Below are positions 1-56,141 of a stretch of DNA of 64,000 bases, one piece after another. The notes under the pieces are model-generated. The model was not told the DNA's origin and ran no database searches. It worked only from the letters and a program-made list of their open reading frames with translations. A program made the position numbers and the translations under genes. Position 1 is the stretch's first letter, and each line of letters starts with the position of its first letter. Source of the stretch: a virus; the IMG/VR virus record IMGVR_UViG_3300028762_000011, positions 1 through 64,000 of that record; one strand, 5' to 3'.

Positions 1-1602
1 CCGCTCGATCAGCAACGACACCGGTGGACCAGTCACCAATGATTTGAAGATACCGCCATGATCGACGCCCATACCAATACCGTCACCGCGCGCCGGCGTG
101 GCGGTCACGCCCAGCGTGTTTTTTGCCGCCAACAGCGCAAAGACCTTCCCCCACTTATTGTTTTTTGTGACATGGTGGGCTTCATCGAACACGACCAGGT
201 CGAATTTGAATTTACCTGGCGTTTTCTTGAGCCGGATCAGCAACGTATCTACGCTCGCGACCTGAATCTTATGGTGCGGATTCGGCGTGAAGTGCGGACT
301 GATCATGCCGTGCTGAATGCCGAGGTTGTGCAGCGCGCGGCTGGCCTGCATCAGCAATTCGTTGCGGTGAACAATGATGATTGTTGAGTTGCCCTTGGCG
401 GATGCGTTGGCGGCGATGTAGCTGAACGTGTAGGTGTTGTGCGTGACCGTGAAATCGCCGAGCATGAAAAGGTGATCACCATCGATCTCGAAGCCGTAGT
501 AGTCGCCTTCACCGATTGGTTCAACATTGATGCCAGTGACAAGAACACTTTTCTTTTGCTGGCGTGGCGATGCAATACGGCGTGCTACTCTACACGGAAT
601 TATATCGACATCGCCATTGATATTTAAACGATAATAAGTACCAGAAAATCCAGTGCTTTTTATGCCTTTTTCACATTGCATAACATAGGATGATAAACCA
701 AGCGATCGCGCCAAATATGCAACATCATCGGCAAGACGTCGCTCTTTGAAAATCAAATCATAGGTACCATTCGAAAGATATCCATCGGTATCAACGATGC
801 CAGCCAATATTTCAAGTCTTACTTCGCGAGAATTACATTTGTAATCGTCTGGAACATGTTTGTTTCCACGCAAATGATAAAAATCAAGCGCATTAGCCAT
901 TCTGTTTGGATGATTACCACGGCCACGGCCATCTTCTGGATAAGAAACTATTCGATAAGTTGGACAAGATTTTGTAAACTCAGTTTCCACACGCATTTTG
1001 TGTGAAATTGCATATTCGCAAATTGCGTCAACAACTTCAAAATCAGCAGTGCTGATATGTGGAAATTTATTTGTCCCATCTCCAAGCCAAAGGCCGAGCA
1101 TATATGGTGGTAAATGCTCATGAACATCACGTGGTTGAAATTCAATTCCGGTACGCCATCCTTTGGCGACATGCTTGAATGTTTTTGAAGATTTTAGATA
1201 ATCAAGAACTGAGATGTTGCAAACTTCATCGCCGCCATACATCAACCCATCACCAGCAGTTACCGGGCTTCCACCACTGATTTTTAGACTTAGAATATGG
1301 CTTTCATTGACGATGTATGGATCACCTTTTACTGGTGTCACACGGTAAAGATTCTCGCGGCCACGCGCAAGCGATTGAACGGTACGCGCCTTGCTATCTG
1401 GACCAATGAGTAGGTCGCCAACAACAATATTCTCGACTGGTTTGACCGTTCCATCGTATAGCAAAACAGGCGTCCCACGCCCCAAGCACTTCCCTGCCCC
1501 GGTCGGCATCTGAAACAATACCGGTTGCAACTTCGACTTGAACGCGGCACGAATATCTGTCACTGCCACATCCTGATAATCCCGCAACACAATTGCTGCC
1601 AT
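1..1602 (-). CDS. DEAD/DEAH-box helicase with in-frame intein (3' end outside window)
   Basis: Superfamily 2 helicase, cut by the left window edge; 534 codons are visible from ATG at 1602 without a stop. The host protein reads PTGAGK at residues 33-38 and resumes with TYTF at residue 390, so the Walker A motif GAGKT exists only after protein splicing. Motif II is DEAH (about residues 473-476) and TATPARG follows (about 498-504), typical of SF2 motif III. Residues 39-389 are an intein (separate entry). It likely unwinds DNA in phage replication or recombination. The helicase call is firm; the exact role is unknown because the C-terminal half is missing. Confidence 0.9.
   Translation of the reverse strand, partial: MAAIVLRDYQDVAVTDIRAAFKSKLQPVLFQMPTGAGKCLGRGTPVLLYDGTVKPVENIVVGDLLIGPDSKARTVQSLARGRENLYRVTPVKGDPYIVNESHILSLKISGGSPVTAGDGLMYGGDEVCNISVLDYLKSSKTFKHVAKGWRTGIEFQPRDVHEHLPPYMLGLWLGDGTNKFPHISTADFEVVDAICEYAISHKMRVETEFTKSCPTYRIVSYPEDGRGRGNHPNRMANALDFYHLRGNKHVPDDYKCNSREVRLEILAGIVDTDGYLSNGTYDLIFKERRLADDVAYLARSLGLSSYVMQCEKGIKSTGFSGTYYRLNINGDVDIIPCRVARRIASPRQQKKSVLVTGINVEPIGEGDYYGFEIDGDHLFMLGDFTVTHNTYTFSYIAANASAKGNSTIIIVHRNELLMQASRALHNLGIQHGMISPHFTPNPHHKIQVASVDTLLIRLKKTPGKFKFDLVVFDEAHHVTKNNKWGKVFALLAAKNTLGVTATPARGDGIGMGVDHGGIFKSLVTGPPVSLLIER
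436..1488 (-). mobile_element. Intein with LAGLIDADG homing endonuclease, inserted in the helicase Walker A motif
   Basis: 351 residues. The first residue is Cys (after GAGK), the last two are His-Asn and the next residue is Thr, as required for splicing. Block A is CLGRGTPVLLYDGT, block B contains NESHIL, and the C-terminal block reads FEIDGDHLFMLGDFTVTHN. Between them are the two dodecapeptide motifs of a LAGLIDADG endonuclease, LGLWLGDGT and LAGIVDTDGYL. The endonuclease part is clearly more AT-rich than the flanking helicase, fitting independent acquisition. Confidence 0.93.
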
Positions 1603-6018: not shown

Positions 6019-7071
6019 CTAAAGGACGGGGATTCCTACAGCTAGCGTCGCACGTCCGCGACGGAGAATGTTTAACGCAGCATTGGTGTCACGATCATGT
6101 ACGCAACCACAGTCACTGCATTGCCACTCTCTTATTCCAAGGTCTGCGATACCTTTCGGCCTCGAATCGGGCAAACAGCCGCAATCCGAACAGATTTGGG
6201 ATGTAAAACGTTCGTTCACTTCCTCGAACCACGCGCCATGCTTAACAGCCTTGTACGCAAGTTTGCTACGGAAGGAAGACCAACCGGCATCCAAAACGGA
6301 CTTCGCCATGCTGGTTTTGGCGAGTCCTGCGGCGTTCACGTTGCCAACCGCGATATAGTCAAACTCTTGAACGATGCGCGTCGAGAGTTTGTGGTGAAAA
6401 TCGTTGCGACGGTTCGAAATCTTTGCGTGAATGGCACTCACGCGACGTTTCTTCCCGGCGCGCTGGGCAACGGCAAGCGCTTGCTCCGTGCCTCGGTAGA
6501 TATGCTGCGCCTCGATCTTTTCGCCAGTGGACAGCGTGGCAAAGTCTTTCAGGCCAAGGTCGATGCCGACGCCACGGCCAGGACTGCGAGCGTCGGCAGG
6601 AGCAACGGCAACGTCGATCACGATGTTCAGGAACCAGTTGCCGCGAGAGTCTTTGGAGAAGTTCGTTCCGTCCTTGATTTTCCCCTCAGGGAGCGGGCGA
6701 CTGTCGAATACGCGAAAGGTATTGCCAGCGAACCGGAAGGCGCTGCCTTCGCGCTTCAATTCGCGGCCCTTGAGCGGAACCCACCCGAGGTTCTTCTTGC
6801 CCCGATAGCGCAAGTACGGGCGCTTCTTCTGCGCGCGCGACTTGGCGTACTGCTCGCACACGGCGTTCACCGTGCCGGAGTGAAGACCAAGTTCTTTGCT
6901 GCTGCCTTGCGTGAGCTTGTTCAAGTCGAACCCGGTATGCCAGCGGCGGTGAAATCGCAGCGCATCCTTCTGCCTGTCGTTGCAGAAATTCCAGACGAAG
7001 TTGCACGCCCTGGCCTGCTTGTTCAGCAATCCGTTCAGCGACTTCACCCGGTATCTATAGACGAGGATCAT
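6019..7071 (-). CDS. tnpB: TnpB-family RNA-guided nuclease (OrfB), RuvC-II Glu absent at usual place
   Basis: 350 residues. N-terminal helix-turn-helix-like region with ACNFVWNF, then a RuvC-like domain: GIDLGLKDFAT supplies the first Asp, HDRDTNAALNIL the last, and a four-Cys zinc finger (CSDCG ... CSDCG) lies before it. At the position where TnpB normally has the catalytic Glu (EDLN-type motif) this protein has VGNVNAAGLAKT, so the Glu is missing there; a Glu in FEEVNERFTSQ could substitute in a rearranged site. TnpB proteins cut DNA guided by an RNA encoded over the gene's 3' end and element end, here expected around 6000-6120. The start overlaps the upstream RHH gene (ATGA). Confidence 0.88.
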   Translation of the reverse strand: MILVYRYRVKSLNGLLNKQARACNFVWNFCNDRQKDALRFHRRWHTGFDLNKLTQGSSKELGLHSGTVNAVCEQYAKSRAQKKRPYLRYRGKKNLGWVPLKGRELKREGSAFRFAGNTFRVFDSRPLPEGKIKDGTNFSKDSRGNWFLNIVIDVAVAPADARSPGRGVGIDLGLKDFATLSTGEKIEAQHIYRGTEQALAVAQRAGKKRRVSAIHAKISNRRNDFHHKLSTRIVQEFDYIAVGNVNAAGLAKTSMAKSVLDAGWSSFRSKLAYKAVKHGAWFEEVNERFTSQICSDCGCLPDSRPKGIADLGIREWQCSDCGCVHDRDTNAALNILRRGRATLAVGIPVL

Positions 7072-39820: not shown

Positions 39821-39848
39821 AGTATAATCAAATAAGAGTATTTTGCAA
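39821..39848 (-). promoter_or_regulatory. Sigma70-like promoter, leaderless start
   Basis: Minus sense: TTGCAA, 16-base spacer, TATACT (39821-39826), then six bases to ATG 39814. Overlaps the 3' end of the giant helicase gene. Lacks the TCGTGAC box, so it may belong to a different timing class. Confidence 0.65.
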
Positions 39849-42800
39849 GTCCTGTTTCTCGACATTGCGTTGATTGACGTATGCCGCCACGCCAGTATCG
39901 TCAAGCCCGTCCATCGAAGAAGTCATCAAATCACGTAACCCATACTTTTTGACCAACCTGTCGCGTGCGACGCGCTCGGCCGGATGGTCATTGATCAAGT
40001 CCGTCAACTCGACATCGTTGAGTTGACCGGTTCTGAAGATACGGCCGTTGCGCTGGGCATGAACCATAGCAGTATTCGGCACATCCATTTGCACCATCCA
40101 CTGCCCACGCTGGATGTTCATCCCCGTCGCCCCGGCATCGCTGGCAACCATGATGTCAGCCGACGCGTCCCCGGTCTCAGGATTGAACGCCAATCGCTTT
40201 TTCTCTTTCTCCACCGCCGAGTCGGCGCCGGTAAGCGACACCACGCGATGTCCTTCTTTCTCCAGCCGCGCCGTGATTGCCTTGACGGCATCGATCGAGT
40301 GCGCGAATACCACGCCAGGCTTGCCCTTGCGGTCGCCGGCCATCTTCGAGATGTGGTCGACCTTGGAGTTATCGGCGTGCGTGTTGAAAATTCGCTGCTG
40401 TGCCGACTGCTTGAGGATGCCGATGTTTGCCTGCAGGTCTTTGGCGATCGCCTCGTGTTGGTCTTCCGGCACGCCGGCGAACGACTGCGGCGAGATCGCG
40501 CGGATCGCAGCGACATCGACGCGCCCAGCCATGCGCGCCAAGCGGGCGTCACTGAAATGCTTGTCCATTTCGGCCATCGCGAGTTTTTGTCCACCTGACA
40601 TTGGCACGGTCTCGGTTTTCCGGTCGGCGCCGACATCAGGGTCAATTTTTGACGGGTAGACATATCGCGCCATCTCGCGCTTGAGTGCGTCCTTGCTGGC
40701 GAGCGTATCGGCACCGTACCGGCGCATGAAGGCGGCGCGGTCGCTGTAGCGGTCTGGGTCCATCTTGCTCATGAGGTCGAAGACTTCGCTGGCATCATTT
40801 TTCACAGGATCCCCGCTCGCGTGTAGCAGATACGGCGTGTTATCGCCAAGCGCATCGGCGACATTGGCGAGTTCGCTGTTTGACTTCCCGGCCCGGTTGA
40901 GAGTATTCTGCGACTCGTCGACGGTGAGATAATCAAAATCGATACCTTCCTTGTCCATTACTGACTTCATCCAAACTTTTCGCCCAGTCCGCGTCATCGC
41001 GTTCAGCCGCGCCGCCATCTCGCCGTCGGAGACGCCGGCATGGGCAGCGCCGAGGTGCGCCATGTCATCGCGGAACGACTGGTGCGTCATCACACAAAAG
41101 TCATGTCGCGGATTCTTGTAGGCGGCGATGCGTTCGGCCCGGTTTGCACCAGGCTGGCAGTGGAGATTGTATTTCCCTGGTTCGAGATACCGCAGCGCCT
41201 CGCCATTGAATTGCCCTTGCACGATCGAAGGCACAAGCGCCAGCCCGCGCTTGGCTTTTCCTTGTTCCTTGAGATTGGTGAACGAAGACAACTGCAACAG
41301 CGACTTGCCGGACCCTGTGCCGAAGGCAGCCACCACCCGCTTATTGGCATCAACCAGCTTGACAAGCCGCTGCCTGGCCGCGTTCTTGCCACCACTCATC
41401 GACGGCGCCCAAATCTTGGTCGGCTGCCCAGGCTTGAAATTCTGCCCGACCTTATCCATCATGGCCGCGACTTGGCGCTCTGCCGCGTGCCCAAGAGAAT
41501 GCCGCTCATCGGCGGCGACAGCGACCTCTTTAGCCTCATCTGGCGGACTGTCGTCGGCAAAGAACCCCATCTGTGACTGCTCGAATGCGTGTTGTTGCTC
41601 GCGCGCGGCATCGATTTTGTCGCTCACAGACCCAGCCGCGTACTTGCCGCCGCTGCGCTCGCGCAAGCTGTCAGTCAGCGCCCGCTCTTGCGCCATGCGC
41701 GCCTCACGCGCTACGGGGTCGACCGCATCCAAGTGGTTGAGGTTGTTGCGGATAACCGAGCGCCCGAGCCGGATCGGCTTATCGGGGTTGAGTTTGTTAT
41801 AGGTTTCCGCGAACGCCTTACCGACTTTCGATCGAATCAGGTCCTGGACCGCTGCGTAGGCGTTCTCGTTGCCGTGCATGGCATCGACATATTTCGACCA
41901 GTTCAGGCTCGACGACTTGATCTTGCCCGCCATCTCGTCACGGCGCGCGCGCCAGTCACTGTGCTCGGGGTTGTCGGTCTCTTCACCGAACATGTCGGTC
42001 ACCGTGCGCTCCGGTTCGGCTGCACCGTGTTTTTCGAAGTCTGCGCGCAACTCAGCGGCATCAGCATCCTCATGCGCGACATTGGCGTGAAAGAATTCGC
42101 GGATAGCACGCTGATCCTGGTCGGTGAGTTCGCCGATCGGCTTATAGGCAGCAGTTCCCTCTGGCGTAGCGGCCAGAGCCCGGTGCAGCGCGTCGACGGA
42201 CTTTTGATCGACATCGAATTTCTGCCGGTTCAGCGTCGACCGCGTGTTCCCGTACCGCTTCGATACGAACGCGTCTGCGTATTCGTCAAATTTCGGTGCC
42301 AGCGTCTCCGCGCGCAGCCGGCCGTCGCCAAGCGGCGCCACGGCGTCGAGCGCGGCCCGATACCCGGCGTTGTCGCCAGACTTCTGGAAGAACGCCTGAG
42401 ACTGGATATCGGCGATGATGTCGGCAGCGGGGTCGCCGTCGGCGGCACGACCACCGATATAGTCTCGAAGCGATTGCTGCAGGTCCGCGCCCGGGGTAAA
42501 AGGTTCTGCCAGCGACGGCGATGCCCCTGGTTTGACATCCATTACCAGATCTGGACGATTGGCCACGCCCAGGGGCAGCCAGCCGTCCTCATCCTCGTCG
42601 CCACGGATAATTGCGATGTTGCGCCGGACCTGCGCGACATCAGCGGCATTGACCGGTTTGGACAGGCGATCAAGACCAGCGCCGTTGATAGTCAGGAACT
42701 TGTCGCCAGCGACCTCATCCAGCGTGTAGTCGCCGCGTTGGAGCCCGATTGCGCGCGCGCGCTGGATCGCGGACTCTGGCGTGGTGCGGCCAAGCGATAC

Positions 42801-44351
42801 CTGAAAACTTTCTTTCTTCCCCTGCTTCAGAGCAACCACGAGCGCGGCATTGGCTTCGAGCTCGCCAAGCGTCTGGCCCATGACCTTTTGCGCGTCTGTG
42901 ACAGCACGGCGACGGCGCTGATTGAGTTCCTGGCCGGCCATGAGGTCGGATCCGCTTGCCATTTCACCCAACTCGATCTCGCGCGCGGTCTCCATGAGAT
43001 CGCGCGCGTCCGAGAGCGCTGACTCACTGGCCGCCATGTAGTGGTCGATGTGGAATTCCTGCATGCCGGCTTGGATGCGCTCCACCTGATCCGGCAAGTC
43101 ATTGTGGATCCGCCGCGCCAGGACTTGAGCGGCGCCAGCAATACCGAGTACGTCCACGACAGACCTGTCCACCAGCGCGTCGCCACCGACGGCCAGCGCC
43201 AGCGAGTTGATGCTGTTGTAGGCACCGACACCGATGTACTTGCCCAGTGTCTCTATCGGCTCATCGCCGGCAAGCCGCTGGAATTCTGACAGGAACGCTT
43301 TCGTCTTGACGGTGCGCAGGTCGGACTCGATATCGTGCTCAATCTTTTCGTCGGCATCGGGATCGGCGGTGTACTCGATCACGTACGCTTTTGGTTCGGC
43401 CGCTGTCTTTGCAATTTCCTTGTTGGCTGCTTGCGCCTTTTGCTGTACCTGCTTGAGCGCTTTCTGCTCTTTGACGAGTTCCATGGCGGCGCGGGCGTCG
43501 ACGAGTTGCACATGCGCGTCGGCGCTGACAAGCGGCTCCCTGATAGTCGCCAGTTCGATCGCCACCATCTTGGCGGTCTCGCCCTTGGCGACTGCGGCGT
43601 TGCGCTGCGCCGGCGTCATCGCATCTTGCTTGGCCTGTTTGCTTGCCTGAACCTCTTTGGCGAGGTCGGCTTCGGTGAGCCCAGCCTTTTCAGCGCGGTC
43701 GGCGTATTTCGGCGCGAAGCCAAGGCCACCGGTTTCCGCCTTGACTGGGTTCAGGTCCGCCACGGACAGCACGTCAGGGTCTTTCGATTCCAGCGGGATC
43801 TCGCCAATATCGGCTTCCATGCGCGCCGCCGCGTTGTCGACCAACATCTTTTTCTGGAGGTTGACTGCCTCGTTGGCGCGCGCCACCAACTCGTTGTGGA
43901 ATTTTGCGCGGACCTTGGCCGCCGCCGCCGGCGACATGTCGGCGACCTTGGCCTCTGGGAATTGCAGCGTCTCCGGCGCCCACTTCATCTTGGCCGCCAC
44001 CTTTTGCACGAATTCCTGTTCCTTTCCAGCTACCTGGCGCTTGACGTCTGCATGCGCTTTTTTCTTCGACTCCACCAGGCCAGCCTCTTTATCGGCTTTG
44101 CGCTGAGCCTTGTCGGCTTCGACCTTGTTCTTTTTCTTTTCTTCGGCTTCGCGCTTGTAGTCGGATTCACTGCGAACGCCACGGATCTTGAGGTAGTTGA
44201 GTTTGCCACCGGCGCCACCGATCACATGAGCACTGCCATCGGCATTGGGTTGGATCAACACCGGCTGACCTTTTGTGCCTGGGCCATTCGGATGGACTGA
44301 GATCCAGCGCGCACCGGCCGGAATAGATTTGAAAAACAGAATAGGCATCAT
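39828..44351 (-). CDS. Giant polyvalent-type protein with C-terminal SF2 helicase
   Basis: 1507 residues from ATG 44351 (ATG 44360 and 44348 are in frame). Opens with PILFFKSIPAG, then HVIGGAGGKLNYLKIRG and a Lys/Glu-rich coiled coil (about 70-160). Helicase near the C-terminus: motif I FGTGSGKSLLQ (about 1005), motif II VDESQN (about 1143), ATP-hydrolysis motif HAQRNGRIFRTGQ (about 1434). The long middle is helical without a domain I can name. Size, opening and helicase resemble phage proteins packaged and injected with DNA. Starts at a late-type promoter. Confidence 0.75.
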   Translation of the reverse strand: MMPILFFKSIPAGARWISVHPNGPGTKGQPVLIQPNADGSAHVIGGAGGKLNYLKIRGVRSESDYKREAEEKKKNKVEADKAQRKADKEAGLVESKKKAHADVKRQVAGKEQEFVQKVAAKMKWAPETLQFPEAKVADMSPAAAAKVRAKFHNELVARANEAVNLQKKMLVDNAAARMEADIGEIPLESKDPDVLSVADLNPVKAETGGLGFAPKYADRAEKAGLTEADLAKEVQASKQAKQDAMTPAQRNAAVAKGETAKMVAIELATIREPLVSADAHVQLVDARAAMELVKEQKALKQVQQKAQAANKEIAKTAAEPKAYVIEYTADPDADEKIEHDIESDLRTVKTKAFLSEFQRLAGDEPIETLGKYIGVGAYNSINSLALAVGGDALVDRSVVDVLGIAGAAQVLARRIHNDLPDQVERIQAGMQEFHIDHYMAASESALSDARDLMETAREIELGEMASGSDLMAGQELNQRRRRAVTDAQKVMGQTLGELEANAALVVALKQGKKESFQVSLGRTTPESAIQRARAIGLQRGDYTLDEVAGDKFLTINGAGLDRLSKPVNAADVAQVRRNIAIIRGDEDEDGWLPLGVANRPDLVMDVKPGASPSLAEPFTPGADLQQSLRDYIGGRAADGDPAADIIADIQSQAFFQKSGDNAGYRAALDAVAPLGDGRLRAETLAPKFDEYADAFVSKRYGNTRSTLNRQKFDVDQKSVDALHRALAATPEGTAAYKPIGELTDQDQRAIREFFHANVAHEDADAAELRADFEKHGAAEPERTVTDMFGEETDNPEHSDWRARRDEMAGKIKSSSLNWSKYVDAMHGNENAYAAVQDLIRSKVGKAFAETYNKLNPDKPIRLGRSVIRNNLNHLDAVDPVAREARMAQERALTDSLRERSGGKYAAGSVSDKIDAAREQQHAFEQSQMGFFADDSPPDEAKEVAVAADERHSLGHAAERQVAAMMDKVGQNFKPGQPTKIWAPSMSGGKNAARQRLVKLVDANKRVVAAFGTGSGKSLLQLSSFTNLKEQGKAKRGLALVPSIVQGQFNGEALRYLEPGKYNLHCQPGANRAERIAAYKNPRHDFCVMTHQSFRDDMAHLGAAHAGVSDGEMAARLNAMTRTGRKVWMKSVMDKEGIDFDYLTVDESQNTLNRAGKSNSELANVADALGDNTPYLLHASGDPVKNDASEVFDLMSKMDPDRYSDRAAFMRRYGADTLASKDALKREMARYVYPSKIDPDVGADRKTETVPMSGGQKLAMAEMDKHFSDARLARMAGRVDVAAIRAISPQSFAGVPEDQHEAIAKDLQANIGILKQSAQQRIFNTHADNSKVDHISKMAGDRKGKPGVVFAHSIDAVKAITARLEKEGHRVVSLTGADSAVEKEKKRLAFNPETGDASADIMVASDAGATGMNIQRGQWMVQMDVPNTAMVHAQRNGRIFRTGQLNDVELTDLINDHPAERVARDRLVKKYGLRDLMTSSMDGLDDTGVAAYVNQRNVEKQDLQNTLI

Positions 44352-44373
44352 GTCCACCATATTCAGGTCACGA
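44352..44373 (-). promoter_or_regulatory. Putative late promoter, leaderless type
   Basis: Minus sense: GTCGTCGTGACCTGAATAT then seven bases to ATG 44351. GAATAT is the proposed -10, and TCGTGAC occupies 44367-44373. Confidence 0.5.
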
Positions 44374-44402
44374 CGACGCCAATTCACTGTGTTTTGTTGC
44401 CG

Positions 44403-44693
44403 GTAACGCAACAACAGCAGTTGTTACGCGTTGTTACGTTTCTGTTACCGTTCCAAGTCTTTGATTTCATTACATTTTTTTCATACTTATAGTATACAGT
44501 TACAAAGTAACATAGATATATATAGATAGATACTATGTGAGCAATCTATATTGCATATAGGAAACATATTGTGTGTGTGCGCGCATGATGCGCATATATA
44601 TGTCTATCCGCATTTGTTACTGTTACTTTGTAACCGCTTTAAAATCAATGACTTAGCGATATTTTGGCGTAACAGCGTAACAATTTGCGTAAC
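44403..44693. repeat. Array of 12 GTTAC/GTAAC elements in divergent control region
   Basis: The AT-rich, gene-free stretch 44374-44909 holds twelve GTTAC or GTAAC words between 44403 and 44693. Two pairs form palindromes: GTTAC-AAA-GTAAC (44499-44511) and GTTAC-TTT-GTAAC (44622-44634). Could be operators for a repressor or replication iterons. No convincing ORF lies in the stretch. Confidence 0.72.
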
Positions 44694-45776: not shown

Positions 45777-46094
45777 CTAGGCGTCGGCATCAATGAGGAT
45801 AAACTTCTCGCCAGCGTCATCAGTCAACTCGACCGCGCCCATGCCAAAGCATGCATTCTCCTGATATTCCTCGACCGCGCCAGAGAGCGCACTCTGCAAG
45901 TCATCAGGCGGCTCCATGCGCGCCGTCACAGAGGGATCGTCAAAATCACCAAGCAGGTACAGGTTATCGGCGGTATAAAACCGCTTCATCAGCGCCTTGA
46001 CGAAATACCAGTGTGTGCCGAAGTTGCGATAATTGCGCGGGTTGGCCTGCAGCAGTTCGAGCGTGCTAGCGGCGAATTGTTTTGGGTTGATCAT
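45777..46094 (-). CDS. Small phage protein coupled to the methyltransferase-helicase
   Basis: 105 residues; ATG 46094 overlaps the stop of the giant upstream gene (ATGA). NPKQFAASTLELLQANPRNY then a hydrophobic HWYFVKALMKRFYTADNLYLLG, ending acidic. No family recognised; coupling implies cooperation with the large protein. Confidence 0.58.
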   Translation of the reverse strand: MINPKQFAASTLELLQANPRNYRNFGTHWYFVKALMKRFYTADNLYLLGDFDDPSVTARMEPPDDLQSALSGAVEEYQENACFGMGAVELTDDAGEKFILIDADA

Positions 46095-49000
46095 GCTGCC
46101 ACCTCTTCGAATTTCGGCAGCATCTCGTCCAATGTGCGGGCCAGGTCATTGGCGTTGAGATGCGAGTTTTGGCGGTACGTCTGCATGCCTAAATCCTTCA
46201 AGGTGGTCTTGCCGATATCTGGGTGCTTGGCGGCGAGGTAGCGCAATGCATCCACCGAGTGACGCGCCAGCGGCATGTTGAGCAAACGCCCAGCATCTTT
46301 GGCCGCAGTTTCAGGCTTGGTACTAGATACCGTCATGGCAGATGCTAGGTCAGCGTATCCATTGTGTTGCGCAAGGGTTGTCAAGGCGTCGCGCACGGTG
46401 GTGCCACCGCCATATATCCCGCTCATCAACGCGTTTCCACTTTCCCCATACTTCCATATGTCCTTGTGAACCTCGTTATCACCACGAGACGACTTCGGCT
46501 GCACTTCTTGGAATGGTTTGTCCAGAACACCATCGTGCTTGGCCTTTGCGTACAGCACGGCCAGCGCCTTGCGCGGCCACTTCGGTGTGGTTCCGTACCC
46601 AATATCAGCCATCGGAACCGCTGCGCGGATGGCATCATGGAAGGTTGGCGCATGGCGTATGGTATCGCCCTGAACACTATGGAATGCCGATTTAGCATCC
46701 TTCTCGAATTCATGCCCGAACAATTCATTGCCGATCGACTTCCACCGGTTGTAGCTTTGATCGTGCTTACCAGGCATGCGCTGTACGAATACGGTCTGTC
46801 CTGGTCGGCTACGGTTGCGACCGGTCACATACTCAGTAGTGAACCGCTTAGCCTTCTCATCGTCGATATATGCCTGGATTGCCTTTTCCCGATGCTCGTC
46901 AGTGGGGAGCATGATATCGTGCTGGTCCGAAGCCGCCAACTTATGCGCCTCATACGATTCAGCGGCAACAGGCGTACCAGACGCATCAAGGAACCCCATA
47001 CCGCCATACGGAGAAGACCACTTGTAATCACGAAGACCTTCTTTCAAGCGGCTTTGCAGGGCCTTGTAATTGGAATGGATCACAGCAGACGGCATACCCT
47101 TCAGCGACTTCAGATCAACCACCGAGCCGACTGAATCTTCCGCAGCCGCCGATAACTTGGTAGCGATCACTGCCTGTTCATCGGCTTCGACATAGTTGAA
47201 AGTAGTGACGCCGGTTTCCATTTCCTTCAACGGAACCGATATAGCGCGAGCGTTTCCGAGTTCTCCGTAGCGGCGCATGGACACGTTTCCGCTGATCGGA
47301 TTAACGGAACTGATCACCCATTTACCAATGGTACCGTTCTTTTCGGCGACATCGAGTCCTACTCCAGCGCTCAATGCAGCGCCGGTCTCGGGATGGATCA
47401 CAACCGGGACTTTGCTGGTTAGCGCTTCCTTGGCGATGAAATACTTGTTTTTCACCAATTTATTGGTGGCTTGATCGATCTGTGACCGCAACCGCGCTGC
47501 GCTGGCGTTATCCTTGTTCTTGAGTTCGCCATAGGATTGCTTCTTCAACTGCAGACGCTTGAACTCATAGGCGGCATCGCGCGTTTGGTCGGCGCCGTAG
47601 CGCTGGGCCGCTGCAGCTTTATCGGCTTCGAACTTGGCACGCTCTGCGTCAGGATCGGCAGACATCATGATCAGCAGGTCGGACCGATCAAGTTTCCCCT
47701 CGCGCGCCAGATTCTCGACGGTATCGCCACCAGTCCACAAAATATCCTGCCAATCCTTTTTCGCCATCATGGATTGGTATCGGTAACCGTCAAACGAACC
47801 CTTGCTCATGTAGGAGTGAATGCGCACAGCCTCATTGATATTACCCTGGCGCAGTCCACGGCCATTGCGCTGTTGCATGCTGGCCGGGTCCCAAGGAAAA
47901 TCGAAGTGATGGATATCGGTTGTCTTTTTCTGCAGGTTGACGCCTTCACCCATGGTCGCGGTGTTGCCAACCACGGCATCGAGTTTGCCGGCATTGAAGG
48001 CGTCGGCGATGTTCTGGCGCTTGGAGGATGATTCCGCTTCTGAGGCATTGATGATGGCGATTCGCTTGCGGTCCATGCCGGCGCGCACGAGTGCTTCGAC
48101 AATCTTTTGGTGCGCTTGCACGCTGTCACAGAAAACTACCTGACCCCCGTCTTTGGCACCGGCCGCGATCACCTTGGCCGCATCTTCATATTTTGGACTG
48201 ACTTCGCCAACATATTTTTCAGGGTCAAGTAGTTCCAAATCAAGAGCCGCTTTCCCCATCTTGCTCATGATCGAGAAAATGTGTGCGTCTCCGGTAGCGT
48301 CTTTTTCCTTGGCCGAGTCAATCAGGTCCTGGCGCAATCCCGCGTAGACGGCTTGTTGCTCTGCGTTCATGTCTACCAAGTGCATCTGGTCATCGCGCTG
48401 AGGCAGCACGAGCCCGACATCGGCAGCGGTTTTGCGGTCGATGTACTTGCGCATGATCTCGCGCAACTCACCCAAGTTCTTGAAGCCAGCGGTCACCATG
48501 GCGTCTTCGATGGTACCGGTGGTGGTGAGTACCTTGTCCTCGACAAACAAGCAGAACCGGTCCAGGAACTCTTCACTGTTGCGGATGCCGATCTGTTCAA
48601 ACGCTTCCGGCGCGATATGCGACAACATCGAATAAATTTCCAGCGGCGAGTTCTTTGTCGGTGTCGCGGACAGCAGATAAATGCCTTTGCCATCATTGTG
48701 CTCGCGCAGGTACCGCGTTTTCATGTTCAGGTCAAAGGCGCGCATGCTCTCGCCTTGGCCGCCAAGGAACTTAGGCGTCGAGCCGAATCTTGCCTTGGCA
48801 GAAAACAAATTTTTGAAATTTTGCCCTTCATCCACTAACAGCATGTCGACGCCAAGGTCATTCCAATAGATCGCGTCTGTTCGCTTCCCGAACTCACGAT
48901 TGGCAATCGCCTGATCGTACGCCTCACGGATTTTCTTCAACTTCTTGTCGCCGGCGTTGCCCTTCTTGTCGCCACGCTGCACCCAGAAGTCGGAACTGAC

Positions 49001-52000
49001 GTATTCGCCCTTGGTAATCGGGTCAATGTCGATTTCTGAGAATGTCGGTTGCGAGATGAAAATGAAGTCGTAATCGTTTTGCACCATGTCGTGTAGCTTG
49101 CGCGCACGAGTGGCGGCGTCATCGGGTTTGCTCTTGAGCATGCCATCGGCATCGCGCGTGTAGGTTTCACCTATCACCAGACAGCGGCTGCCAGGAAACC
49201 AGCGCTCGGCTTCGGCGACCCAGTTGGCCAGAACTGACTTCGGCACCACGAACGTGGGGCGCTGCGCGGTGCCATTGATTTTCGCCATGCGCGCTAGCAT
49301 GAGACCACGTACGGTCTTGCCGAGCCCGACGTCAGCCGCGACAATTCCTTTACCAGCGGACATCGCCCAGCGCAACCCCGCGTACTGGTATTGCTTCAGG
49401 CCCTCAGTATTCATGCCCGGGATATCAATTGTTGCGTCCGAAAACTCCTTCTGGACAAAGCCACGGAAGCGCCGGTTATACAAGTCTTCAACCTCGTCAC
49501 GGTATCGACTCGTCAGCAACCACGCCTTGAAGTCTTCATTGAGTGCCTGAATGTCAGGTAAGTCTTTCTTGCCGACGCCATCACGGTTTAGGTAATTGGT
49601 GAGCAACTTCTGTGCGCTCGAATACTCGCTGCCACCTGTGACCGTGTACCACGCATCTGCAAACTTGATCGATATGTCTGGGTGCTTGCGCTCCCAGTCG
49701 TTACCGGAATTGTTCTTTTTGTCGTTCAGGTAGGCTTCGAGTATGGTTGTAGGCAGGAACGCGGTGTTGACCTGGATGTCGACGTCTTCGAGCGACTTCG
49801 GGTCGATGGCGTCTTCTAGGCGTTTTGCCTGCAGCGCATATTTTTCTGCTAGTCCTTCACGGAGTTCGCCTTGTGCTGTCGCTGCGCGGACCCCATCCAG
49901 CTTCGGCCAGAGGTCTCCGGTAAGGTAAATGTCCATGGTCGTCCAGCGGTCGCCACCTGCATAGGCGTAGTCGGACGAGGCAAAGAGATGGTCCTCGACG
50001 TCGGCAACTGGTTTGTCCATGCGCGCCGCCAGATCGGCAACTGTGAATAGGCCATTGTCATGCTCGATCGCAAGCGACTGCGCAGCGGTCTCGAACGACC
50101 CCTCGACGCGCTGCACAGTAGCCCCAGACACCACATCAGACAGCGTGCCGTCGGGTTTGACGGCGCCAATGAGACGATACAAAACGCGATCTTGCGATGC
50201 CGCCAACAACAAATTCTTGTTCTTTCCCGGGTTCCCATGCGCATCGACGTAAGCCTGAACGCGCTCGGCCAGGCCGACCCGGTCGCCACCGGCGATAGCT
50301 GACTCAATATCGCGCGCGAGCTGCTGGGCATCGGTCACATCGGCAGACTGCATGAACTCGTCGACACGGTGCCAGCGCGGCGGCCGCCCCTGCAGAATAT
50401 AGTCAATGCCATCAACCGTCTTGGTATCGCCGACCTTGCCGACAACGTAATTGCGTTTCACGGCGGCGCCGAGCACCCGCTTGCGGTCGCCATCATCATC
50501 GAGTGCGTCAACGACTTCCTGCACGGTAGGCGTCGGCGTCTTGAATTCGTCTGGTTGCCATGTACTGATGCTATCTGGGACGCCGATCATACTCCCGGCT
50601 ACCGTGATGTCATTGCCGATTCCGGCCTTCGCCCGCCAGCCCGCTTCCATTGTACCGAAGACTGAATCAGCACCACGCCCTTCAAAATAGTTTCCTGACA
50701 AGTAATCCTCGTCCCAGACGCCGAGTTTCTTCATGGCCGCGCGCCCAGCAGACTTCAGCGCCGCCGCTACATCATCAGGACGTTTGCGGAAGAACACAAT
50801 ATCTGTCGTCACTTCGGTATGGCTGTGCTCGAATGCCGTGTTTGGCATGCGAATGGCGCCGAGAAATTCGCCTTTGCAGAGTAGGCGCTGGCGGACCTTT
50901 CTGCCGCTGCTGCTGTCGAGCACGCCAGTGGGCACGATCATCGCCACCACGCCGCCGGGTTTGCACTTATCCAGCGACGTATCGAGGAAGTAACCTTCTG
51001 CGGTGGACAGTTCCGGCTTATCGTCTTTGATGAGACTGCCGCGGAGTCCGAATGGCGCGTTCCCGATGACTGCATCGAACTGGCGGTCACCATCGGATGT
51101 AGCGAAACGCTCCAGGCTGGAATTGACGATTTCATGGCGGTCACCATGCAGGACATCGGCGATCGCTGCGCTGGTCGGGTCGAGTTCGACGCCGGTAAGG
51201 CGCACGCCGACCGGCGCAGTATGCGCAAAAACGCCGGTCGCGCAGGATGGTTCCAGCACAGTGCCATGCGTTACGCCGAGCCGCCCCAGGACTGTCCACA
51301 TGGACTTCGCCACTTCCTGGTCGGTATAGAACTCGTTCAAGCTGTCGCCGCAGCCACCGTTACCGCTGTATTGGCGCAAGACAGCGCGATCGCTGTCGGT
51401 GATGTCTTTGCCGGAATTGACGATATCGAATGCTTTTTGGTTGATTTCGCGGCGCCTGGCTTTGGTGATGCCGGCGGGGACGCCGAATGGGCCTTGCTCG
51501 ACTGCTGACGCTGGCGCAGCGGCTTCGATAGGATGTGGTTCGACAGGCGCCACATGCATTGAATACTCTACTGCTTTCGCACGCGAAATCGCTGGTGTGG
51601 TGCCAAGATGCTTCTCGCGAATGAACCAGCCACCGTCCTTTTTGAACGTGTATTCGTCAATGGCCTTGGCCTGGTCAGCGCTCAGATCATGCCGAACCAC
51701 GCCGCGCAGCGTCTTACCGCGCCCGGTGACGTGTTCGGTTATTTCATGTTTTGTTGCAGGTTCAGCCGATTCCGTTGCAATTTCAGGCTCTATTGGCGCG
51801 GAAAACAGGTCCGGCGTTTCGCCGACTGTAGCTGTAGGTACGGTGATAACGAACTTCGCCGCCACTTGTTCAGGTGTGATTCCATCCAATTTCGCCATTT
51901 CGGCGATCAGACGCTGGCGCTGCGGTTCCGTCATGCCTGACAATGTATTGGAAAGCCGCTCGGTGCCGCCATGTGCGGCAATGAACGAATCAAGCTTCTT

Positions 52001-52186
52001 GTGCCGAGGCGCAGTATCGTGCTTCAGTTTGATTTTTTGGATGCGCGTATGCGGTGCCACTACGGTACCATCGGCACGCACGCTCGCTCCGACATGGACA
52101 GGCGCACTAAACAAGCCAAATTGCTCGGATTTGAAGAATATCAGCATCGCAGTGGCCGTCAGATTGGGATTCTGACAGCCTACCAT
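46091..52186 (-). CDS. DarB-like polyvalent protein: DNA methyltransferase plus SNF2-type helicase
   Basis: About 2031 residues. Opens with IFFKSEQFGLFSAPVHVG then ASVRADGTVVAPHTR, a segment common to injected polyvalent proteins. N6-adenine-type methyltransferase at about 265-480: motif I VLEPSCATGVF, catalytic motif DAVIGNAPFG (variant of NPPF/Y). Helicase at about 930-1420: DVGLGKTVRG, LVDEGQN, LLSATPTKNS, NGRGLRQG. Phage P1 DarB has the same order; it is packaged in the head and protects DNA from type I restriction. Start taken at ATG 52186, overlapping the upstream stop. Confidence 0.85.
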   Translation of the reverse strand: MVGCQNPNLTATAMLIFFKSEQFGLFSAPVHVGASVRADGTVVAPHTRIQKIKLKHDTAPRHKKLDSFIAAHGGTERLSNTLSGMTEPQRQRLIAEMAKLDGITPEQVAAKFVITVPTATVGETPDLFSAPIEPEIATESAEPATKHEITEHVTGRGKTLRGVVRHDLSADQAKAIDEYTFKKDGGWFIREKHLGTTPAISRAKAVEYSMHVAPVEPHPIEAAAPASAVEQGPFGVPAGITKARRREINQKAFDIVNSGKDITDSDRAVLRQYSGNGGCGDSLNEFYTDQEVAKSMWTVLGRLGVTHGTVLEPSCATGVFAHTAPVGVRLTGVELDPTSAAIADVLHGDRHEIVNSSLERFATSDGDRQFDAVIGNAPFGLRGSLIKDDKPELSTAEGYFLDTSLDKCKPGGVVAMIVPTGVLDSSSGRKVRQRLLCKGEFLGAIRMPNTAFEHSHTEVTTDIVFFRKRPDDVAAALKSAGRAAMKKLGVWDEDYLSGNYFEGRGADSVFGTMEAGWRAKAGIGNDITVAGSMIGVPDSISTWQPDEFKTPTPTVQEVVDALDDDGDRKRVLGAAVKRNYVVGKVGDTKTVDGIDYILQGRPPRWHRVDEFMQSADVTDAQQLARDIESAIAGGDRVGLAERVQAYVDAHGNPGKNKNLLLAASQDRVLYRLIGAVKPDGTLSDVVSGATVQRVEGSFETAAQSLAIEHDNGLFTVADLAARMDKPVADVEDHLFASSDYAYAGGDRWTTMDIYLTGDLWPKLDGVRAATAQGELREGLAEKYALQAKRLEDAIDPKSLEDVDIQVNTAFLPTTILEAYLNDKKNNSGNDWERKHPDISIKFADAWYTVTGGSEYSSAQKLLTNYLNRDGVGKKDLPDIQALNEDFKAWLLTSRYRDEVEDLYNRRFRGFVQKEFSDATIDIPGMNTEGLKQYQYAGLRWAMSAGKGIVAADVGLGKTVRGLMLARMAKINGTAQRPTFVVPKSVLANWVAEAERWFPGSRCLVIGETYTRDADGMLKSKPDDAATRARKLHDMVQNDYDFIFISQPTFSEIDIDPITKGEYVSSDFWVQRGDKKGNAGDKKLKKIREAYDQAIANREFGKRTDAIYWNDLGVDMLLVDEGQNFKNLFSAKARFGSTPKFLGGQGESMRAFDLNMKTRYLREHNDGKGIYLLSATPTKNSPLEIYSMLSHIAPEAFEQIGIRNSEEFLDRFCLFVEDKVLTTTGTIEDAMVTAGFKNLGELREIMRKYIDRKTAADVGLVLPQRDDQMHLVDMNAEQQAVYAGLRQDLIDSAKEKDATGDAHIFSIMSKMGKAALDLELLDPEKYVGEVSPKYEDAAKVIAAGAKDGGQVVFCDSVQAHQKIVEALVRAGMDRKRIAIINASEAESSSKRQNIADAFNAGKLDAVVGNTATMGEGVNLQKKTTDIHHFDFPWDPASMQQRNGRGLRQGNINEAVRIHSYMSKGSFDGYRYQSMMAKKDWQDILWTGGDTVENLAREGKLDRSDLLIMMSADPDAERAKFEADKAAAAQRYGADQTRDAAYEFKRLQLKKQSYGELKNKDNASAARLRSQIDQATNKLVKNKYFIAKEALTSKVPVVIHPETGAALSAGVGLDVAEKNGTIGKWVISSVNPISGNVSMRRYGELGNARAISVPLKEMETGVTTFNYVEADEQAVIATKLSAAAEDSVGSVVDLKSLKGMPSAVIHSNYKALQSRLKEGLRDYKWSSPYGGMGFLDASGTPVAAESYEAHKLAASDQHDIMLPTDEHREKAIQAYIDDEKAKRFTTEYVTGRNRSRPGQTVFVQRMPGKHDQSYNRWKSIGNELFGHEFEKDAKSAFHSVQGDTIRHAPTFHDAIRAAVPMADIGYGTTPKWPRKALAVLYAKAKHDGVLDKPFQEVQPKSSRGDNEVHKDIWKYGESGNALMSGIYGGGTTVRDALTTLAQHNGYADLASAMTVSSTKPETAAKDAGRLLNMPLARHSVDALRYLAAKHPDIGKTTLKDLGMQTYRQNSHLNANDLARTLDEMLPKFEEVAA

Positions 52187-52923
52187 CACGATGACTTGGT
52201 GGTTTCCTTGAAGAACAGCACAGCCTTAATCATCGCAGGCTTGTCATACGTAGCACGCACCTTGGCGACGAACTCGTCAACCGGCATGGCGGTGATCGGC
52301 CCCAGAAAGCGCGGGTCATCGTAATTGCGCAAAAATGCCGCGCGCGCCGCAGTCTCATTGGGGAAGTTGACCATCACTTTGTCCTCGTCGTAGCGCTCCC
52401 AGTCGCCGACTTTGCGCTGGCGCACCACATAGACCTGCGTGGCGTCTTCATCCGGCCCGACAAATACGTCGACCTCATCGCCATCGGTGCCTTCACTCCG
52501 GCAGAAATAGCCGTATGGGCGCACCATGGTGGTCGACCACTTGTCGCCATTCGGCTTGGTGCCGCTGCGCGTCGATCCCGCCTCGTTCTCGACGGCGATC
52601 TCAAGTCCATGCCAGGCGATGCGCCGCTTTTTGTAGTTGCCAGCGGCGATCTGGGCTTCGGTCGGTTGGGCCTTGACGAATAGCACGGACTTCACCATCG
52701 GCACCCCAGCCATATCAGCCTGTTCGCACTTGCAGATGGGGCACATACCAGGACCGCCGCAGCGCGCTTTGATCATATCGGGGCGTGGATTGACGTGGCC
52801 GTGCGACTTCCCGGCATTATGGTAGGCGGCGGCGACTGCCTGCGCGCGCGGATGTCCGGCACGAATCATTTCGGCTATGTTGGAACTGATCACGGATTGG
52901 CTGTCGCCTGATGCGAGTGGCAT
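52186..52923 (-). CDS. Polyvalent protein with inorganic-pyrophosphatase-like domain
   Basis: 245 residues. N-terminal [26 protein letters not shown] is a short helical module found at the start of phage virion proteins; a [14 protein letters not shown] zinc motif follows. After VLFVKA (about 80-85) comes the main domain: [20 protein letters not shown], then [15 protein letters not shown], as in pyrophosphatase-like domains described in polyvalent proteins. The end repeats the hydrophobic tag (VLFFKE). Lies between the minor head protein and the DarB-like gene, coupled to both. Confidence 0.65.
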
Positions 52924-55681: not shown

Positions 55682-55765
55682 TGGTGGATGCGGCTGGATT
55701 CGAACCAACGCGCTGTTAAGACCTGCTCTACAGGCAGGTGCCATCAACCACTCGGCCACGCATCC
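55682..55765 (-). tRNA. tRNA-Tyr (GTA)
   Basis: Acceptor GGATGCG/CGCATCC, discriminator A, encoded CCA. D arm GCC...GGC with GTGGTT loop, anticodon arm CCTGC-CTGTAGA-GCAGG giving GTA, long class II variable region of about 13 bases, T arm GTTGG-TTCGAAT-CCAGC. All arms pair; likely functional. Confidence 0.92.
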
Positions 55766-55973: not shown

Positions 55974-56048
55974 TGGTTGCGGGAGATGGAATCGAACCAC
56001 CGACCTTCAGTTTATGAGACTGACGAGCTACCGCTGCTCTATCCCGAC
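55974..56048 (-). tRNA. tRNA-Met (CAT)
   Basis: D arm GAGC-loop-GCTC, anticodon arm TCAGT-CTCATAA-ACTGA giving CAT, variable AGGTC, T arm GGTGG-TTCGATT-CCATC, encoded CCA. The acceptor pairs at positions 3-7 but the first two pairs (G-A and T-C) do not match; an unpaired first position recalls initiator tRNA. CAT could also be Ile if the C is modified. Confidence 0.85.
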
Positions 56049-56141
56049 ACACGAATTGGAACTTCAGTAATTGGTGCCAATTCGTGTGCTGTCTCGAAAG
56101 AGACAGCGTGCCAAGTCTTTACATCCTTGGCTGGGTAACGA

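Follow-up and report, generated by a model that had tools for sequence, protein, structure and literature searches.

A probable PI-SceI-like intein in the Walker A motif of a phage helicase and a lineage that may track P-loop-coding DNA

Why would a mobile element settle inside the catalytic P-loop of a helicase, and is the element at this locus one that splices itself out? These questions are raised by the first gene of the window, that is, the whole stretch of 64,000 nucleotides analysed here (positions 1 to 64,000 of the IMG/VR virus record IMGVR_UViG_3300028762_000011). An uninterrupted reading frame spans 1602 to 1 on the minus strand and contains, as its residues 39-389, an insert that reads CLGRGTPV...GDFTVTHN without any stop (window 436-1488), preceded by ...MPTGAGK and followed by TYTFSYIAAN.... 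The original prediction had placed at 436-1488 a LAGLIDADG intein of about 351 residues that starts with Cys and ends with His-Asn, and both its coordinates and its junctions proved to be exact. The frame error or stop that it had named as fatal was not encountered in the insert, the frame being open, and the proposed splitting of the Walker A motif was borne out, since the flanks are GAGK and T and GAGKT becomes contiguous only when 436-1488 is removed. The features of the gene are the following:

1489-1602, minus strand: N-extein of the helicase, 38 residues (MAAIVLRDYQ...PTGAGK), with a putative start codon placed by homology of the LRDYQ motif with relatives
436-1488, minus strand: intein, 351 residues, Cys1...His350-Asn351, supported by Pfam, alignment, AlphaFold and PI-SceI likeness
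1153-1488, minus strand: N-terminal Hint (splicing) part, about residues 1-112, with N61xxH64, from the Hom_end_hint match at precursor residues 39-107 and invariant columns in 28 relatives
1075-1104, minus strand: first LAGLIDADG motif, YMLGLWLGDG, with Asp137 (D137 invariant in 28/28 relatives)
781-816, minus strand: second LAGLIDADG motif, LEILAGIVDTDG, with Asp235 (D233 and D235 invariant in 28/28 relatives)
436-537, minus strand: C-terminal Hint part, about residues 318-351, ...DYYGFEIDG...TVTHN, from the alignment of relatives and the AlphaFold model
1-435, minus strand: C-extein of the helicase, 145 of its 444 residues in the record, the gene being truncated by the record start, from the open frame and the ResIII match
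Sequence around the insertion site: GGNNNNGGNAARACN

The virus record spans 65,384 bases, and its first base truncates the helicase gene. Comparison of the record ends for a circular closure that would complete the helicase revealed no shared ends, and the whole gene, with 38 + 351 + 444 residues, was obtained from L010, a stretch of this phage from a second sample (100% identical over 7488 bases). A search of the virus record with the precursor found only one copy, and the C-extein used as a query against viral contigs retrieved only the same phage and one relative at 29%. The flanks matched ResIII above the Pfam cut-off, and the host protein was assigned to phrog_16, DNA helicase, in PHROGs. 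With a Walker A motif PTGAGK/T (here and below the slash marks the insertion point), a DEAH box in the C-extein and a helicase family match, the host has the characteristics of a phage SF2 helicase.

Within the insert, Hom_end_hint, Hom_end and LAGLIDADG_3 were detected, all of them above the Pfam cut-offs. In an alignment with 28 relatives (A1), Cys1, N61, H64, D137, D233, D235, H350 and N351 were invariant. The insert presents the Cys at position 1 (28/28 in A1), the block B His (N61xxH64) and the C-terminal His-Asn (H350-N351) of a class 1 intein, followed by Thr at +1; Cys, Thr or Ser at this position is a chemical requirement of class 1 splicing. Its two LAGLIDADG motifs keep the catalytic acidic residues (D137 and D235) of a LAGLIDADG homing endonuclease. 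The AlphaFold model of the insert, built with the A1 alignment, reached a mean pLDDT of 94.6, and its top Foldseek match was PI-SceI (E 9e-27, TM 0.77 over the query); archaeal VMA and fungal Prp8 inteins came next. A profile search of PDB sequences gave PI-SceI at 2e-48, Prp8 inteins at about 1e-22 and archaeal VMA inteins at 9e-5. Both the Hom_end_hint match and the likeness in fold to PI-SceI and the Prp8 inteins indicate a Hint fold. Domains, structure and homologues agree with the predicted LAGLIDADG intein in a phage helicase and, as judged from sequence and model, what interrupts this phage SF2 helicase is very probably a mobile class 1 LAGLIDADG intein of the PI-SceI type.

Such an element would be a putative functioning, or recently functioning, homing intein. 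Its precursor would self-splice to give a helicase of 482 residues whose Walker A motif is functional, and the excised 351-residue protein would cut intein-free alleles, into which repair would then copy the intein. That the helicase would be inactive before excision can be soundly inferred from the split motif. The segment might otherwise be an ordinary non-splicing insertion domain of the helicase or a dead intein. We give this reading hardly any credence, given the complete set of splice residues, the two catalytic Asp, the uninterrupted frame, the confident model and the clean empty alleles. A non-splicing helicase insertion was rejected, the splice residues, the fold and the empty alleles being all intein-like.

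The empty alleles came from a search with the C-extein, which gave matches in 1195 of 50,697 phage records. Among six close helicases inspected, five were empty with an intact GK/T (phages PHB04, PBb002, ST4, ZRG1 and Jeremy) and one was occupied at GK/T. The helicase of Bordetella phage PHB04 (55% identical) reads PTGGGK/TFTFSYIAA without an intein, and that of Pseudomonas phage Touem01 (37%) carries an intein of the same family at the same junction. The check proposed together with the prediction, for intein-free relatives and for relatives with an intein at the same site, returned both kinds, and homologous alleles that are empty at the exact site are as expected for a class 1 intein. Relatives of the intein were present in 638 of the 50,697 phage records and in 25 of 72,556 plasmid records, some of the phage records being already annotated as "intein containing helicase precursor". 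Since K/T is already a "classic" site and intein-bearing phage helicases have been annotated before, the element alone is not novel; it is a further case of a known type. In Salmonella phage vB-SeS-01 (L329), the annotation also places an intein in the DNA polymerase that adjoins the intein-bearing helicase.

The neighbours of the helicase gene encode exonuclease VIII (phrog_412), a Dda-like helicase (phrog_325), a P-loop protein (phrog_1499) that gives a weak SbcC-like match, a tail sheath, a tape measure protein and a tail fibre. From these genes, the carrier is likely to be a contractile-tailed phage or prophage. A TnpB/IS605 OrfB gene (Cas12f1-like_TNB) is located in the early region (window 6019-7071, minus strand), and a pair of IS200 TnpA and TnpB genes lies at the far end of the record, partly past the window (L002, 3952-5384). 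Two giant proteins are encoded on the minus strand, one of 2032 residues with SNF2, N6 methylase and Helicase_C (46091-52189) and one of 1528 residues with SNF2 and Helicase_C (39828-44414), which may be akin to antirestriction proteins carried in phage heads. The tRNA genes of the window are:

55682-55765, minus strand: tRNA-Tyr (gta)
55974-56049, minus strand: tRNA-Met (cat)

In order to place the intein within its family, relatives were collected by searches that used intein residues only as patterns. The samples comprised 43 loci, the best 80 of 559 from IMG/VR, the best 80 of 212 from GTDB genomes and, ranked against other members, the best 80 each of 574, 583 and 576; these family samples lean towards the query sequences used. 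The resulting 315 locus records represented 276 distinct inteins, of which 266 were usable and 10 were left out because they were truncated, ran off a contig or had no clear start. Sorting by pattern assigned 223 of the 266 to [GAS]K/[ST], 37 to G/[STC]G[KM] and 6 to other sites. Reading by eye put L265 and L287 (both Ser1) at K/S of a P-loop and L311 at a variant of the terminase P-loop, whereas L249, L298 and L312, which are among the 223 by pattern, are not at Walker A. After this reading, with domain searches on part of the set only, a Walker A-like site was recognized in 260/266. The six members outside it are found in a head maturation protease (L249), in portal proteins (L298 and L315), in a terminase off its P-loop (L312) and, about 12 residues before Walker A, in SF2 proteins (L253 and L262).

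The exteins of the 266 inteins, from phages and bacteria, fell into 42 groups (BLAST separation at 1e-8). One member from each of 41 groups was searched against Pfam or PHROGs, the SF2 group being represented by the window helicase; a named family was obtained for 28 of the 42 groups and nothing useful for the other 14. Among the named hosts were SF2, SNF2, a DEAD/Helicase_C protein (RecQ-like in appearance, as we take it), DnaB, UvrD, RecD-like, MCM and primase/helicase proteins. The other named hosts were AAA, ClpB D2, AAA_3 (presumably of the MoxR type), AAA_5, RecA, thymidylate kinase, several terminases, a portal protein and a prohead protease. The residue at -1 is Lys in 224/266, and the splice junction appears tolerant, since the residue after the insert is nearly always Thr or Ser (263/266). 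A second intein-like stretch, with Intein_splicing or LAGLIDADG_3 matches, was observed in L117 (4030-6729) and in the C-exteins of L140, L251, L281 and L102. Distant second inteins with an apparent Ala start (GK/AQP...) were also seen at a P-loop GK/T in L353, L355 and L357 (records of L289, L222 and L295), and these are 27-30% identical to the window intein family. As this distant Ala-start family is also at GK/T, and in the same phage records, Walker A would be attacked by more than one intein lineage.

Two registers of insertion were distinguished, mostly GxGK/T and, in 37 members, a position three residues earlier (GxG/SGKT), the two being nine bases apart. L104 (344-1387) and L113 (3001-4038) are 73% identical and belong to the same terminase group, with GIGSGK/S in the former and GIG/SGKS in the latter; both have Ser at +1 and their registers are offset by exactly three residues. 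In this pair of relatives the splice junction appears to have slipped. At the second intein position, 35/37 members of the early register have His and 180/223 of the late one have Leu. On a FastTree tree of 151 inteins less than 60% identical to one another, 7 register changes were needed. Changes of extein group amounted to 57, between the minimum possible of 40 and a shuffled mean of 83.6, which indicates that the inteins cluster by host gene yet cross genes often. The number of jumps is uncertain given the weak resolution of the tree, in which 67 of 148 inner branches are open and 28 are starred. Among the matches listed, the closest pair in non-homologous exteins (L011 in a helicase and L083 in an AAA_5 protein) is only 61.4% identical, so that all jumps are too old for direct observation. 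Two close family members were present in 3 of 49 records (50 loci, of 187 usable viral ones), and a recent gene-to-gene jump within one phage was rejected because these co-resident pairs are just 40-47% identical. With regard to a possible exchange of modules between the Hint and endonuclease parts, their trees conflict at a support of 0.95, with 4/14 Hint and 3/12 endonuclease splits contradicted, the support being low.

Base composition had been taken in the original prediction as a sign of recent arrival. The AT-richness itself is real: G+C is 0.434 in the insert versus 0.550 in the extein part within the window, and GC3 is 0.34 versus 0.70 (0.63 for the whole extein gene, L003), with a peak of AT-richness in the endonuclease part (GC3 0.25, residues 106-305) and a weak effect at the insert ends. 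The window copy is also an outlier, its intein minus extein GC3 of -0.294 being the third lowest of 266, with a family mean of -0.088. However, intein G+C is below extein G+C in 93% of the 266 members, so that recent arrival is only partly supported and is not proved by a low G+C alone; nor can a recent donor be seen, because the nearest relative outside the phage among the matches listed (L004, G+C-rich at 0.61) is only 59.6% identical.

We also analysed the DNA of the insertion sites. At 123 K/T sites, the codons for G-4, G-2 and K-1 show no third-base bias and match the codon usage of the gene. Third-base preferences were found for A in codon -5 (47 vs 30 expected), G in codon -3 (47 vs 33) and C in codon +1 (50 vs 34), with z values of 4.0, 4.1 and 3.4, respectively; this pattern was absent in 139 control motifs, a loose P-loop set in which spurious ORFs are included. 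The site of the window itself has the preferred third base in its +1 codon (ACC) and lacks it at -5 (ACC) and -3 (GCA). A DNA weight matrix was built from 120 P-loop sites, leaving out the own extein group and ranking all positions of both strands, and it ranked the true site first in 91% of the 120. For L249, the head-protease site (HPGDGK/SRI) was ranked 2 of 3746; for L312, the terminase site off the motif (FASIGK/TTN) was ranked 2 of 3992; the portal sites were ranked 45 of 3872 (L298) and 42 of 4190 (L315). DNA mimicry of a P-loop would be a good fit for L249 and L312 and only weakly fits the portal sites.

Taken as a whole, the preferred explanation for the position of these inteins, and probably the right one, is targeting of Walker A-like DNA rather than regulation of the ATPase or pure splicing compatibility. 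We also lean towards the broader proposal of a motif-tracking lineage, whose niche would be the DNA encoding Walker A and not one gene, in view of the 42 extein groups, the two registers and the look-alike non-ATPase genes. The endonuclease of such a lineage would recognise GxGK[ST]-coding DNA and would tolerate many synonymous changes, a tolerance that would permit passage between unrelated P-loop genes, with occasional entry into non-ATPase genes that carry look-alike DNA. It has to be weighed against the possibility that the P-loop position is kept since conditional splicing regulates the ATPase, with targeting being secondary. The insertion point does lie inside a catalytic motif, P-loop clustering and regulation are treated as open in a review (PMC5874633), and mycobacterial DnaB inteins are reported to splice conditionally (PMC6195587). 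Nevertheless, members of the same lineage reside in the protease of L249, the portal proteins of L298 and L315 and the off-P-loop terminase of L312, where there is no Walker A switch, and at least four canonical P-loops of the same phage (at 3617, 8091, 49313 and 57344) are uninterrupted. The lineage members in non-ATPase proteins weaken the regulatory reading implied by the original prediction, and we consider it quite improbable.

Near-random insertion, from which only K/T or G/S sites survive through splicing compatibility and conserved flanks with no preference of the endonuclease, would account for the near-universal Lys at -1 and Thr or Ser at +1. K[ST] and G[ST] dipeptides are ordinary in proteins, and few members are found at them outside a P-loop, which argues against this explanation; moreover, the third-base preferences at -5, -3 and +1 are unexplained by protein chemistry. 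We regard it as unlikely, and DNA targeting stays the preferred reading. If the motif-tracking proposal is true, endonuclease targeting, and not selection for ATPase regulation, would explain much of why inteins cluster at P-loops. The functional significance of the association of inteins with P-loops is posed as an open question in PMC5874633, and one intein family across many P-loop proteins and a few non-ATPases now opens it to cutting and splicing tests. Compact members, mostly of 330-360 residues, would be speculative starting points for nucleases or splicing tools tolerating GK/T. The lineage across proteins may have been described earlier, a 2016 survey having treated intein clustering.

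Among solved inteins, PI-SceI (Sce VMA1; PDB 1ef0, 1vde, 1lws, 1dfa) is the closest to the window intein in both sequence and fold. The first 54 residues align closely, a C-terminal DYYG...VHN block is common to both, and specific similarity in sequence and fold extends across Hint and endonuclease, as in the PI-SceI type. The window intein is, however, smaller (351 vs 454 residues), and profile positions 54 and 111 correspond to PI-SceI chain positions 54 and 198, with most of the middle segment absent. As the DNA-recognition segment between Hint block B and the endonuclease (PI-SceI 55-197 vs profile 55-110) is mostly lacking, we call the element PI-SceI-like and not a VMA1 intein. The site also differs, the yeast intein being at VMA-a, between Gly and Cys, according to PMC2814812, and the window intein at the P-loop.

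A counterpart in insertion site is the mycobacteriophage TerL1-a intein, one of the "classic" P-loop inteins, which, as described in PMC5050341, likewise separates the invariant Lys of a phage ATPase's Walker A motif from the Thr; its host is a terminase and not an SF2 helicase, and the two are compared here by insertion site. The same article names K/T as the classic P-loop insertion, puts the share of inteins that reside in ATP-binding proteins at about 70% and reports class 3 inteins as common to TerL and DnaB (PMC5050341). Helicases of Klebsiella phage JD001 and of Salmonella Jerseyvirus phages carry inteins of the same family as the window intein at GGGK/T and GSGK/T, 53.5% and 44% identical to it, respectively, in different SF2/SNF2-type host helicases and in phages different from that of the window. 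The archaeal VMA-b inteins (Tli and Pho; PDB 7qss and 7qst) share the P-loop K/T position and the combination of Hint and LAGLIDADG parts, as described in PMC8966425 and PMC2814812, but they are far more remote from the window intein (profile E 9e-5) and, unlike it, carry accessory DNA-binding domains (PMC8966425).
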